Positions 7,492-43,200 of a stretch of DNA of 64,000 nt are shown one piece after another. The translations under genes were made by a program, and so were the position numbers. Positions within the stretch are counted from its first letter, which is position 1. Each line of letters opens with the position of its first letter. The stretch lies in the NCBI RefSeq assembly GCF_005434945.1, contig NZ_SKCH01000003.1, positions 248,001 through 312,000 on the forward strand. The letters run 5' to 3'. Below the pieces are notes generated by a model. It made no database searches. It had not been told where the DNA came from and saw only the letters and a program-made list of their open reading frames with translations. This DNA is from Prescottella subtropica. Lineage in GTDB: Bacteria > Actinomycetota > Actinomycetes > Mycobacteriales > Mycobacteriaceae.

Positions 7492-8583
7492 ATGGAGCGA
7501 CGGTCGGCAGCGCAGGGCACACAGCGAGGGACGGGCGCGGTCGACCGGAGCTGGCCCGCCGTCCTCGGCGCCCTCACCGATCGACGTGACCTGTCGGCCG
7601 CCGACACCGCGTGGGCGATGGACGAGATCATGTCCGACAACGCGACCGCGGCGCAGATCGCGGCGTTCGGCGTCGCATTGAAGATGAAGGGCGCCACGCC
7701 CGGCGAGCTGGAGGGCCTGGCGGACTCGATGCTCGGGCATGCGACGACCGTGCCGGTGTCGCCGGACGTCGTCGACATCGTCGGCACGGGCGGGGACCGC
7801 TCCAACACCGTCAACATCTCGACGATGGCGTCGGTCGTCGTGGCCGCGGCCGGGGTCCGGGTCGTCAAGCACGGGAACCGGGCGGCGTCGTCGAAGAGTG
7901 GCGGTGCCGACGTTCTCGAGGCGCTCGGGGTGCACATCAATCTCGGTGCGGCGGCCGTCGCACGGTGTGTCGACGAGGCCGGGATCGGTTTCTGTTTCGC
8001 GCCGGTGTTCCATCCGGCGCTGCGGTTCGCGGGGGCGCCGCGCAAGGAGATCGGCATCCCGACCGTGTTCAACGTGCTCGGTCCGCTGACCAACCCGGCC
8101 CGCCCGCGTGCGGGCCTGATCGGGTGCGCGTTCGAGGACCTGATCGAGGTGATCGCCGGTGTGCTCGCGGGACGCGGCAACTCGGCGCTGGTGGTGCGCG
8201 GCGACGACGGCCTCGACGAGCTCACGACGTCGACGACGTCGGTGGTGCACGTCGTGTCCGGGGGGACGGTGCGGACGCAGAAGCTGGATCCGACGGATCT
8301 GGGGATCACCCGGGTGTCCCTCGACGCGCTGCGCGGCGGCAACGCCGACCACAATGCGCGGGTGGCGCGGGGAATCTTCGCCGGCGACCCCGGTCCGGTG
8401 CGGGACGCGGTCCTGTTGAACGCGGCCGGCGCGATCGCGGCGTTCGACGGACTCGAGGGTGACCTCGAGGAGTCGCTGGCGGCGGGAATGCGCAAGGCCG
8501 CCCACGCGATCGACTCGGGGGCGGCCTCGGCGCTGCTCGACCGGTGGGCGTCGCTGACGACGCAGTTGGCTACTCCCCGATAG
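7492..8583 (+). CDS. trpD: Anthranilate phosphoribosyltransferase
   Basis: Transfers the phosphoribosyl group of PRPP to anthranilate in tryptophan synthesis. The 363 residues are close to the M. tuberculosis enzyme (370). The PRPP loop [14 protein letters not shown] and the anthranilate-site block [12 protein letters not shown] are intact, followed by the GPLTNPARP segment. I chose ATG 7492 (MERRSAAQG), preceded by GGGG about 6 nt upstream. No other trp gene is adjacent, as in mycobacteria. Its last 14 bases overlap the convergent Lrp-type gene. Confidence 0.96.
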
Positions 8584-40308: not shown

Positions 40309-40929
40309 TCACAGCGGAAGCCCCCGGCCGAGGACCGCGAACGGGCGCCGGTCGCCGGCGAACGTGAAATGGCGGACGACGTCGCGGAATCCGGTGCGCC
40401 GGTACAGCCGCCACGCCCGGTTGTCCTCCCGGTCGACCTCCGGGGTGGACAGCAGCACACCCCGCTCCGGGCGGTCGGTGAGGAGCCGCTGCAGCAACCG
40501 CTCACCGAGTCGGTGCCCCTGCGCGGCCGGGTGGACGTGCAGTTCGGTCAGTTCGAAGTAGTTCCCGAGGATGCGGTCGACCTGCTCGCCGCTCCACCCG
40601 GACTCCTGCATCCCGTGCCGGACCTGCTGCTGCCACCACTGGTCGGGGGCGCCGCGGTAGCCGTACGCGATCGCCAGCAGGTCCGCCGGCCGGTCGGGGC
40701 GCTGCGGATCGGTGCGGACCGCGCCGACCGCCCGCCACCCGGCACGCCCGATGTGCTCGGACCACATCGGGGCGCGGTGGTACTCGGTGCCCTTCGGGTA
40801 GCCCATGGCCGCGACGTAGATCCCGAGCGCCTCGGGCAGTCGCGCGCGCATCTCCGCCGGCGGCAGATCGACGACGACCGGACCCGGGTCGGACGGATCC
40901 GCGGCGTCTGTCGTGTCTGTGGAGTTCAT
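40309..40929 (-). CDS. GNAT family acetyltransferase (Rv2170-like)
   Basis: A 206-residue GNAT protein, identical in length to Rv2170, an enzyme reported to acetylate isoniazid. FELTELHVHPAAQGHRLGERLLQRLL holds the acetyl-CoA loop (Q-x-x-G-x-G/A-like, here QGHRLG; cited in part), and NRAWRLYRRTGFRDV is the C-terminal motif. ATG 40929 (MNSTDTTDAAD) matches family length; GTG 40941 is an alternative with GGGAGA upstream. It leads a minus-strand run with crtO, cruF, lppM and the GT2, all downstream of the SOS box at 40994. Confidence 0.9.
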   Translation of the reverse strand: MNSTDTTDAADPSDPGPVVVDLPPAEMRARLPEALGIYVAAMGYPKGTEYHRAPMWSEHIGRAGWRAVGAVRTDPQRPDRPADLLAIAYGYRGAPDQWWQQQVRHGMQESGWSGEQVDRILGNYFELTELHVHPAAQGHRLGERLLQRLLTDRPERGVLLSTPEVDREDNRAWRLYRRTGFRDVVRHFTFAGDRRPFAVLGRGLPL

Positions 40930-40993
40930 GCGTGGGCTCACCCTGGTTCTCTCCCTTGACGACGTGTCGGTGGGGCCAGCTATATTGAATAGG

Positions 40994-41009
40994 TCGAACA
41001 TGCGTTCGA
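40994..41009. promoter_or_regulatory. LexA/SOS box
   Basis: TCGAAC-ATGC-GTTCGA is an exact match to the mycobacterial/actinobacterial SOS consensus TCGAAC-N4-GTTCGA. On the plus strand it sits wholly inside the spacer of TTGAAT (40985-40990) - N17 - GATATT (41008-41013), a good housekeeping promoter for the HEPN gene. A minus-strand promoter for the GNAT gene is less clear (TATAGC nearby). LexA repression is expected from sequence and needs testing. Confidence 0.85.
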
Positions 41010-41105
41010 TATTGGTGATCCGGTGATGTGTCGGTGGTTCGCCCGGGGAAGCGACGCATCACCGGATCGCCGGGAACTCGGCAGCGGTGGGAGGTGCTCG
41101 GAGTC

Positions 41106-41612
41106 ATGGCGGAAGTCGAGTCTCGGGTCGGGGTGGGGGTCGCGTCCAGTCTGCCGGTGGGGCCGGCCGGGTGCGCGGGTTCCACGCGTTCGCCGGCGTC
41201 GGCGCCGTATCGGGCGACCGTGCTGTTGCGGCGTGCGGACGGACTGCTGTCGGAGGCGGCGGGGGCGTCGATGCCCGACGAGCGTTTCCGGTGCGCGTAT
41301 CTGAGTGCATTGAAGGGGGCTGCCGCGGTACTCGCCGCGTGCGAGGGCGCGGCGCGGGTGGCATCCGGTCGGCGGCCGCGCTCACGCAGTGCGTGGGTGC
41401 TCCTGGCGCGGGCGGCACCCGAGTTCGCCGCGTGGGCCGACTATTTCGCGGAGCATTCCGCGTTGCGGGCCGCGGTCGAGTCGGGGGTGACACGGTCGAT
41501 CGACGGTGTCGCCGCGGACAGGTTCTACGGGGAGGTCGGACGGTTCCTCATCGCGGTCGACGATCTGCTCGCCGGGGCCGGTCGACACGCGGTCGATGCC
41601 GGCACCGGGTGA
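41106..41612 (+). CDS. SAV_6107-type HEPN protein under an SOS promoter
   Basis: A 168-residue protein. After a variable, Ser/Pro/Gly-rich N-terminus, residues about 40-165 form an all-helical HEPN-like domain as in the SAV_6107 family: [72 protein letters not shown]. No RX4-6H ribonuclease motif is seen in the expected helix, so RNase activity is doubtful. ATG 41106 is chosen (GGAG 3 nt and GGGAGG 11 nt upstream). The LexA box lies about 100 nt upstream. Role in DNA damage response is inferred from the promoter. Confidence 0.82.
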   Translation: MAEVESRVGVGVASSLPVGPAGCAGSTRSPASAPYRATVLLRRADGLLSEAAGASMPDERFRCAYLSALKGAAAVLAACEGAARVASGRRPRSRSAWVLLARAAPEFAAWADYFAEHSALRAAVESGVTRSIDGVAADRFYGEVGRFLIAVDDLLAGAGRHAVDAGTG

Positions 41613-41824
41613 TCGACCCTGTCCGGAACGCGGCATATGTGCAGGTCATGGGCACATCGGTGTCGGCTGCCATCGGTTACCGCCGATTCGTCGGGAACTC
41701 GTCGGTGGAGTAGGTGGTACGGCGCGGGCGTACCTCGTATTATCGAGTTCAGGTAATCGTCAGTTCGTTACCCGCCTCACCGCACCGCGGCGAGGTGTCA
41801 ACTCTTAGTGCCGGGGGAGGTACC

Positions 41825-42253
41825 GTGCCACTCTCCGAGCACGAGCAGCGCATGCTCGACCAGATCGAGAGCGCGCTCTACGCCGAGGATCCCAAGTTCG
41901 CGTCCACCGTGAGGGGCGGGCGCATGCGTGCCCCTTCCGGAAGGCGACGACTGCAGGCGGTGGCCCTTTTCGTTCTGGGTCTGGTCCTCCTCGTCGCGGG
42001 CGTGGCTCTGAATGTGCGGTTGGGCGAGTTTCCGATCATCAGTCTGATCGGATTCGTCGTGATGTTCGGTGCCGGAATTCTCTTCCTCCTCGGTGGAGGC
42101 AAGGGGAGTCCGGCGGAAGTTCCCGACGGGAACGCCACTCCGCATGGGGCGGGTGGATCGCATCCGCGCAGATCCCATGGCGGCAAGAAATCTGCGGGCG
42201 GATTCTCGTCCCGCATGGAAGACCGTTTCCGGAGGCGATTCGAGCAGGAGTAG
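41825..42253 (+). CDS. DUF3040 membrane protein (Rv2169c-like)
   Basis: A 142-residue protein. The start PLSEHEQRMLDQIESALYAEDPKFAS is the DUF3040 signature, followed by two helices (about residues 42-62 and 68-88) and a basic, Gly/His-rich cytoplasmic tail. Homologues sit before mraZ in many actinobacteria, but the function is unknown. GTG 41825 has GGGGGAGG 4 nt upstream. A strong terminator follows, so the gene is separate from the mraZ operon. Confidence 0.92.
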   Translation: MPLSEHEQRMLDQIESALYAEDPKFASTVRGGRMRAPSGRRRLQAVALFVLGLVLLVAGVALNVRLGEFPIISLIGFVVMFGAGILFLLGGGKGSPAEVPDGNATPHGAGGSHPRRSHGGKKSAGGFSSRMEDRFRRRFEQE

Positions 42254-42999: not shown

Positions 43000-43042
43000 C
43001 CCCCGGGCGCCGGCGAGTGCCGCGAGGCCTCTGCCCGAGTGT

Positions 43043-43113
43043 GACCCTGACGCACTTCCCCAGCGCCAGGGTCGCCACCGGGAACCTGACACTCTTCCCC
43101 AGTGCCAGGTTCC
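43043..43113 (+). ncRNA. Tandem hairpins ahead of rsmH (fits mraW RNA motif)
   Basis: Two hairpins, 43043-43073 and 43081-43113, share the loop CTTCCCC and one unpaired A and C opposite each other in the stem. Their stems differ by compensating changes: GACCCTG/CAGGGTC plus CGC/GCG in the first, GGAACCTG/CAGGTTCC plus CACT/AGTG in the second. That pattern means the RNA fold is selected. The place, in the mraZ-rsmH gap of an actinobacterium, is that of the mraW RNA motif described from comparative genomics. Mechanism unknown; it could affect rsmH translation or transcript stability. Confidence 0.75.
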
Positions 43114-43200
43114 TCGATCGGACAGGGACCCCGAGGCATTCGTCGCCCTCCGAACAACCACCACCGCGCGCGAGCGCACGAGCATCAACCGGAGGACAGC

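Follow-up and report, generated by a model that had tools for sequence, protein, structure and literature searches.

A small HEPN-domain gene of Prescottella subtropica that appears to be controlled by two separate DNA damage responses

Background

Under stress, actinobacteria can gain mutations by translesion mutagenesis. In mycobacteria, the imuA'-imuB/dnaE2 genes for the ImuA'-ImuB-DnaE2 mutasome are reported to be under the control of both LexA and PafBC (PMC10421592, as far as the available part of that report goes). The promoters that respond to PafBC (RecA-NDp promoters of the recA P1 type) have been given, in the accessible sections of two papers, the consensus tTGTCRgtg-8-TannnT (PMC5656591) and TGTCGG-10N-TA-3N-T (PMC8151990). 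Among HEPN proteins, the SAV_6107 subfamily is entered in a survey table with 'No' under 'Conservation of Rx4-6H' and with no operon partner (PMC3710099, table as available), by which it differs from the HEPN ribonucleases, with which it shares the HEPN domain as defined by Pfam.

The locus described here lies in a stretch of 64,000 nucleotides from Prescottella subtropica (hereafter the window) and combines features of these systems. The promoter of its SAV_6107-type HEPN gene has the exact motif and spacing of the recA P1-type promoters, but adds a LexA box 7 nt past the -10 element, at a fixed spacing. Judged by motifs alone, it therefore has the dual LexA and PafBC control reported for the mutasome genes (PMC10421592, available part), and in other families the HEPN gene precedes these very genes, as in locus L213 and in many of the named loci introduced below. 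The differences are that the HEPN gene of the window has no polymerase neighbours and that the word HEPN is absent from PMC10421592. A conserved gene under apparent double damage control, encoded before mutasome or DinB genes in many relatives, makes an obvious candidate for an overlooked component of the machinery, and so far it has been called just 'SAV_6107-like HEPN'.

The LexA regulon of Corynebacterium glutamicum was reportedly described by Jochmann in 2009. In the available part of a later paper, cg2381 ('conserved hypothetical') is named as a member of this regulon and is up by an M-value of 3.86 with ciprofloxacin, equal to recA, while mraZ is cg2378, three tags away (PMC5055667). This reported LexA-regulon gene is thus found near mraZ, where the HEPN gene should be, and the C. 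glutamicum control genome matches PF18726; from its position cg2381 is likely the HEPN orthologue. SOS control of the HEPN family has therefore probably been published already, for this one species, so that the original prediction, which knew of no such control, is not supported on this point. In the open-licence literature we found no description of PafBC control of the HEPN gene or of its linkage to polymerases, and a search combining HEPN with LexA gave no paper evidently devoted to this gene. What is apparently new here is the dual LexA and PafBC control, the polymerase linkage and the leader RNA.

Results and discussion

The HEPN gene and its neighbours

The HEPN protein (168 aa; PF18726, 99 bits, supported by the alignment of relatives) is encoded on the forward strand at 41106..41612, with an ATG start preceded by GGGAGG at 41089-41094. 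A GTG at 41028 was considered as the start and rejected, as in-frame TGA or TAG codons interrupt the aligned stretch in 5 of 13 genus relatives; these stops, together with the conserved RNA hairpin located upstream, make ATG 41106 the more likely start. A DUF3040 gene (PF11239; 41825..42253, forward strand, start chosen by eye) separates the HEPN gene from mraZ (PF02381; 42568..42999, forward strand), and a GNAT acetyltransferase is encoded divergently at 40309..40929 on the reverse strand, with the GTG at 40941 as another possible start. The Pfam searches agreed with the identities originally given to the HEPN, acetyltransferase, carotenoid (PF04240), amine-oxidoreductase, GT2 and LppM genes. 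An mraW RNA element (RF01746) at 43009-43151 of the window scored 49.5 bits, just under the curated threshold of 50.

All 14 genomes of the genus carry the HEPN gene (PF18726), as do 114 of 121 genomes of the family, with one match per positive genome, and 90 of 111 genomes sampled from the order, including 84 that belong to other families.

The SOS box and the promoter

The palindrome TCGAACATGCGTTCGA at 40994-41009 (letters checked; no strand assigned) matches the actinobacterial SOS box consensus, used here as TCGAACN4GTTCGA, just as had been claimed, and is predicted to be a LexA operator. Only two exact sites of this pattern occur in the host assembly (4,404,788 bases in 67 contigs), against none for the reversed control pattern; the second one (L001/L203) is found ~120 nt upstream of where a DUF222-HNH gene starts. 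The host genome is rich in TCGA and contains 944 sites within two mismatches of the box; since looser boxes are this common, the case for the box at 40994-41009 rests on its conservation. Conservation in front of SAV_6107 genes had been suggested as a check, and it was confirmed. The box is exact in 14 of 14 genus genomes. At the 119 family loci (the 14 genus genomes and 105 others, with the HEPN-positive genome G015 left out), the best box within 600 nt upstream of HEPN has no mismatch in 76 cases, one in 22, two in 11 and three or more in 10, so that 98 of 119 have one mismatch at most, a level that the reversed control reached at 0 of 119 loci, never coming below three mismatches. Fifty of the 84 loci from other families were read, and the box was exact in 38 and had a single mismatch in 11 (49/50); the one locus without a box is on a short contig. 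Among 80 named loci, an uneven sample made up of the best 80 of 479 relatives, mostly Micromonosporaceae, the box has 0 or 1 mismatch in 73 of the 79 that have enough upstream DNA. The scan of family loci found no convincing box in genera g4 (7 genomes), g5 (2) and g8 (2), which keep both HEPN and GNAT.

The original prediction placed the box in the spacer of a TTGAAT/GATATT promoter. Both hexamers are present with 17 nt between them, but GATATT varies among the 14 genus genomes (GATATC, GACATC, GACACC, GATGAT and others), whereas TATATTGAATA, which precedes the box, shows little or no variation; for this reason TTGAAT/GATATT, with a -10 element that is not conserved even within the genus, was rejected as probably not the working promoter. 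A PafBC (RecA-independent) motif, TGTCGGTGGGGCCAGCTATATT, is located on the forward strand at 40965..40986, with the -10 element TATATT at 40981-40986, and matches TGTCGG-N10-TANNNT upstream of the HEPN gene. A -35-like hexamer TTGACG is found at 40956..40961 (forward strand), 19 nt before TATATT, with each position at least 90% conserved in the 14 genus genomes. The window contains two PafBC sites of this TGTCRG type versus 0.21 expected, and the stricter pattern TGTCRGTG-N8-TANNNT has 19 sites in the host genome versus 1 for the reversed control. All 14 genus genomes have the motif and the box together at a fixed spacing (TGTCGG in 13, TGTCAG in 1), and the relaxed motif TGTCRN11TANNNT was found at a box spacing of 29 nt (54 loci), 30 nt (12) or 40 nt (5), i.e. 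at 71 of 119 family loci. Genera g9, g10 and g18 for the most part lack the PafBC half, while many of their loci still have TATATT and the box. A consensus scan of 40880-41900, which does not cover PafBC promoters, reported no sigma-70-like promoter and no intrinsic terminator.

The LexA box starts 7 nt after the -10 element. Transcription from TATATT would start about at the beginning of the box, and LexA bound there would consequently cover the start site. Since the PafBC motif precedes the box at a fixed spacing, two damage pathways are expected to converge on this promoter, and by these sequence signals DNA damage appears to turn on the small HEPN gene via two separate alarm systems.

Both regulators have genes in the host genome. 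LexA is encoded at C67:62308 (PF01726), and two one-mismatch boxes, TCGATCACGTGTTCGA and TCGAACAGATGTTTGA, precede the LexA domain by 247 and 167 nt, respectively. A tandem pair of WYL genes at G000:C18 has a Pup-ligase gene (PF03136) next to it, the arrangement that pafB-pafC should show; proteasome and tat genes nearby were named by eye.

The leader hairpin

The sequence at 41012-41073 folds as a 22-bp stem (z -2.85 for 111 nt; -4.64 for 90 nt, 60 shuffles), with the 5' arm at 41012..41033 and the 3' arm at 41052..41073 on the forward strand, and with an enlarged loop (41034-41051) that ends in the motif GGGGAAG (41045..41051). At 80 of the 119 family loci GGGAAG is found within 110 nt after a box with at most two mismatches. 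In the alignment of 62 distinct cores out of these 80 (the window and G011, with an enlarged loop, and duplicate cores were left out), 91.6% of cells are paired and 13 of 16 pairs have changed on both sides. Double changes were counted in 212 cells versus a shuffled mean of 64, with 0 of 500 shuffles as good, and when the partner columns were shifted by one to three positions, pairing fell to 29-44%. The loop reads AGGGAAG in 59 of the 62 distinct relatives. G-U pairs outnumber A-C pairs (87 vs 14), which argues that the sense strand is a functional RNA. A leader peptide inside the hairpin was also considered and set aside, as the compensatory base changes argue for structure.

A covariance model built from these cores, run on 81 family genomes, gave 46 matches with E no worse than 0.05, most of them being training sequences, and 45 of the 46 lie 97-433 nt upstream of a HEPN domain on the same strand; the near absence of further copies suggests that the hairpin is a cis element of the HEPN gene. 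Independent support came from family f14, with five loci at E 0.0011 or better: among 58 other loci and the window the model was clear solely in f14 (L235-L238, E 8e-6 to 0.0011) and weak in L197 (E 0.038), and 23 further sources (11 of the 80 named loci and 12 big regions) yielded one match (L219, also f14). The copy in the window has a genome-wide E of 0.53, level with an unrelated chance hit, and was missed under stricter filters. GGGGAAG stems picked by eye in L181, L183, L186, L190, L194, L196 and L198 have no support from the hairpin model. The hairpin was not found in genera g3, g4, g5, g8, g17, g20, g22 and some others; g3, which we take to be Corynebacterium-like, differs from the window in having neither a GGGAAG hairpin nor a PafBC motif at the fixed spacing. 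Searches of Rfam 15 for the hairpin of the window and of 7 relatives gave no match that reached or approached a curated threshold, and weak matches to microRNA models alone. Judged against Rfam alone, the hairpin is apparently new, and with its covariation it makes a testable candidate for a new RNA regulator inside the SOS response.

Linkage to translesion polymerase genes

A Y-family polymerase domain (PF00817) was sought in 80 of the 84 HEPN-positive genomes from outside the family. At least 61 of the 80 encode it on the same strand as HEPN and no more than 13 kb downstream, and at least 31 have it within 3 kb; for 19 of the 80 there is none within 13 kb downstream among the matches listed. 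In L217 and L218 a DinB-type polymerase gene lies downstream of HEPN, from which it is separated by one gene (a methyltransferase in L217), and is followed by DUF3040. The putative operon of L213 has the order box, DUF6504 (PF20114), HEPN, ImuA' (NF058630), ImuB-type protein and error-prone DnaE (NF004225). L211 encodes an ImuB-type protein and DnaE, and in L209 and L210 a DnaE-type polymerase comes next, the one in L209 scoring too low to pass the cutoff of the error-prone model. With a minimum of 45% identity, the 80 named loci have ImuB downstream on the same strand in 73 cases and DnaE2 in 69, with both in 69, a polymerase fraction that is biased upward by the choice of these loci for their similarity to a HEPN protein from such a cluster; looser counts (ImuB 76 of 80, DnaE2 71) are swelled by Y-family genes that cross-match. 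In the window no polymerase gene is found beside HEPN, which is followed by DUF3040 and mraZ; presumably this family lost a neighbouring polymerase.

DUF6504 is found between the SOS box and HEPN at L213:6552-6926 and L209:7308-7676, and similar frames were recognised by eye in families f8, f12 and f16. It may be another mutasome-linked factor; no paper on it was found in the open-licence literature.

The location of HEPN just ahead of DinB or ImuB-DnaE2 genes in other families suggests that its product is most likely an accessory of translesion synthesis rather than a toxin. Altogether, we regard the locus as a damage-inducible control region of the HEPN gene, operated by LexA and PafBC, with a leader hairpin and with a translesion accessory as its product, and put the probability of this whole reading at about 0.6. 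In undamaged cells, LexA would sit on 40994-41009, over the start site expected for TATATT, and block the promoter. After damage, RecA-driven cleavage of LexA would open the site, while PafBC would independently bring RNA polymerase to the TGTCGG-N10-TATATT element. The transcript would open with the hairpin and its AGGGAAG-type loop and continue into the HEPN reading frame, and the protein would act in translesion DNA synthesis as an accessory factor of either DinB or the ImuA'-ImuB-DnaE2 mutasome.

We also speculate, and offer it as a tentative extension, that the HEPN protein could be an unrecognised translesion factor that travels with DinB and the mutasome across the actinobacterial order and stands alone in this family, and that the leader could represent a new RNA class, with the AGGGAAG loop read by a trans factor, possibly HEPN itself, as a feedback switch of mutagenesis.

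An unlikely alternative, suggested by the genes that follow HEPN in the window (DUF3040 and mraZ), is that the protein is an SOS inhibitor of division acting on the neighbouring division cluster. In C. glutamicum treated with ciprofloxacin, mraZ indeed fell (M -1.13) while cg2381 rose (PMC5055667, available part). This alternative has to face the tie of HEPN to polymerase genes in several other families, a counter-argument that is itself qualified by L217 and L218, where DUF3040 still follows DinB.

Assignment of the control region

The original prediction allowed the box to control the acetyltransferase and pigment genes as well. Indeed, GNAT lies divergently beside HEPN at every one of the 119 family loci, so that synteny alone cannot assign the box, and its start is only ~64 nt away from it. 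The longest GNAT frame even opens with an ATG inside the SOS box (40999-41001), the GTG at 40941 and the ATG at 40929 being the likelier starts. The informative cases are loci that have only one of the two genes. Genus g29 lacks HEPN in 6 of 6 genomes and keeps GNAT in all 6, with a DUF3040-like frame just beyond (by eye); its intergenic space, again in 6 of 6, contains no PafBC motif and nothing closer to the box than 3 or 4 mismatches. Conversely, 9 of 20 loci from other families keep the box and HEPN with no GNAT match in the 1.5 kb examined. From these two observations we conclude that the predicted control region goes with the HEPN gene, to which the PafBC motif also points. A box that is bidirectional, repressing both sides in the host, or that mainly serves the GNAT and carotenoid genes is accordingly quite improbable, and the claim of control over the latter genes is not upheld.

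The divergent position at the box of L209 (family f9) is taken by a gene (7986-8516) for a 6-O-methylguanine-DNA methyltransferase (PF01035), a repair gene that may share the operator there. Genome G106 (genus g27), the seventh HEPN-less genome of the family, has neither a HEPN nor a GNAT match, in a genus that otherwise keeps the locus.

We infer that g29 is Mycobacterium. If so, the main model genus is without HEPN, which would explain why studies of PafBC and the mutasome have missed the gene; the mycobacterial mutasome would then work without HEPN, which counts against a translesion role.

Is the HEPN protein a toxin?

Membership in the HEPN superfamily and the SOS-type promoter had led to the proposal of a damage-induced toxin or RNase that arrests growth. 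The 69-row alignment of HEPN proteins contains no invariant His. The 53 family proteins have no conserved His that could serve in an Rx4-6H active site, and 50 of them have Tyr where the 16 non-family proteins have the His of an R-x4-H motif. The presence of R-x4-H in 16 of 16 non-family proteins would favour the proposal, but the motif presumably falls in the second helix, which we take not to be its usual place. A profile search of solved structures with HEPN returned just four partial matches, to designed proteins. PADLOC reported no match for the HEPN protein of the window and a weak one for a single relative (PDC-M05B, E 3.3e-4), and the single match per positive genome across 114 of 121 family genomes is unlike the behaviour of mobile toxin modules. 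Together with the 'No' for conservation of Rx4-6H in the survey table (PMC3710099, as available), this makes a toxin or RNase a doubtful interpretation, and we prefer the translesion accessory.

A chance match to the SOS consensus, which the 944 loose sites of a TCGA-rich genome might invoke, is contradicted by the conservation of the box over the family loci and can practically be dismissed.

Other sites in the host genome

A second LexA-like repressor (PF01726, with a LexA-type protease sequence recognised by eye) is encoded at G000:C17:38577-38762 (L322); with two such paralogues, the genome could divide its SOS regulon between them. At G000:C24:246-282 (L161, L202) a PafBC motif abuts a one-mismatch SOS box and points to the contig start ~245 nt away. 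Another PafBC motif, TGTCGGTGGCCCCGACTATGTT, at G000:C65:132878-132899 (L166, L204), is located ~80 nt before a gene encoding a TerD domain.
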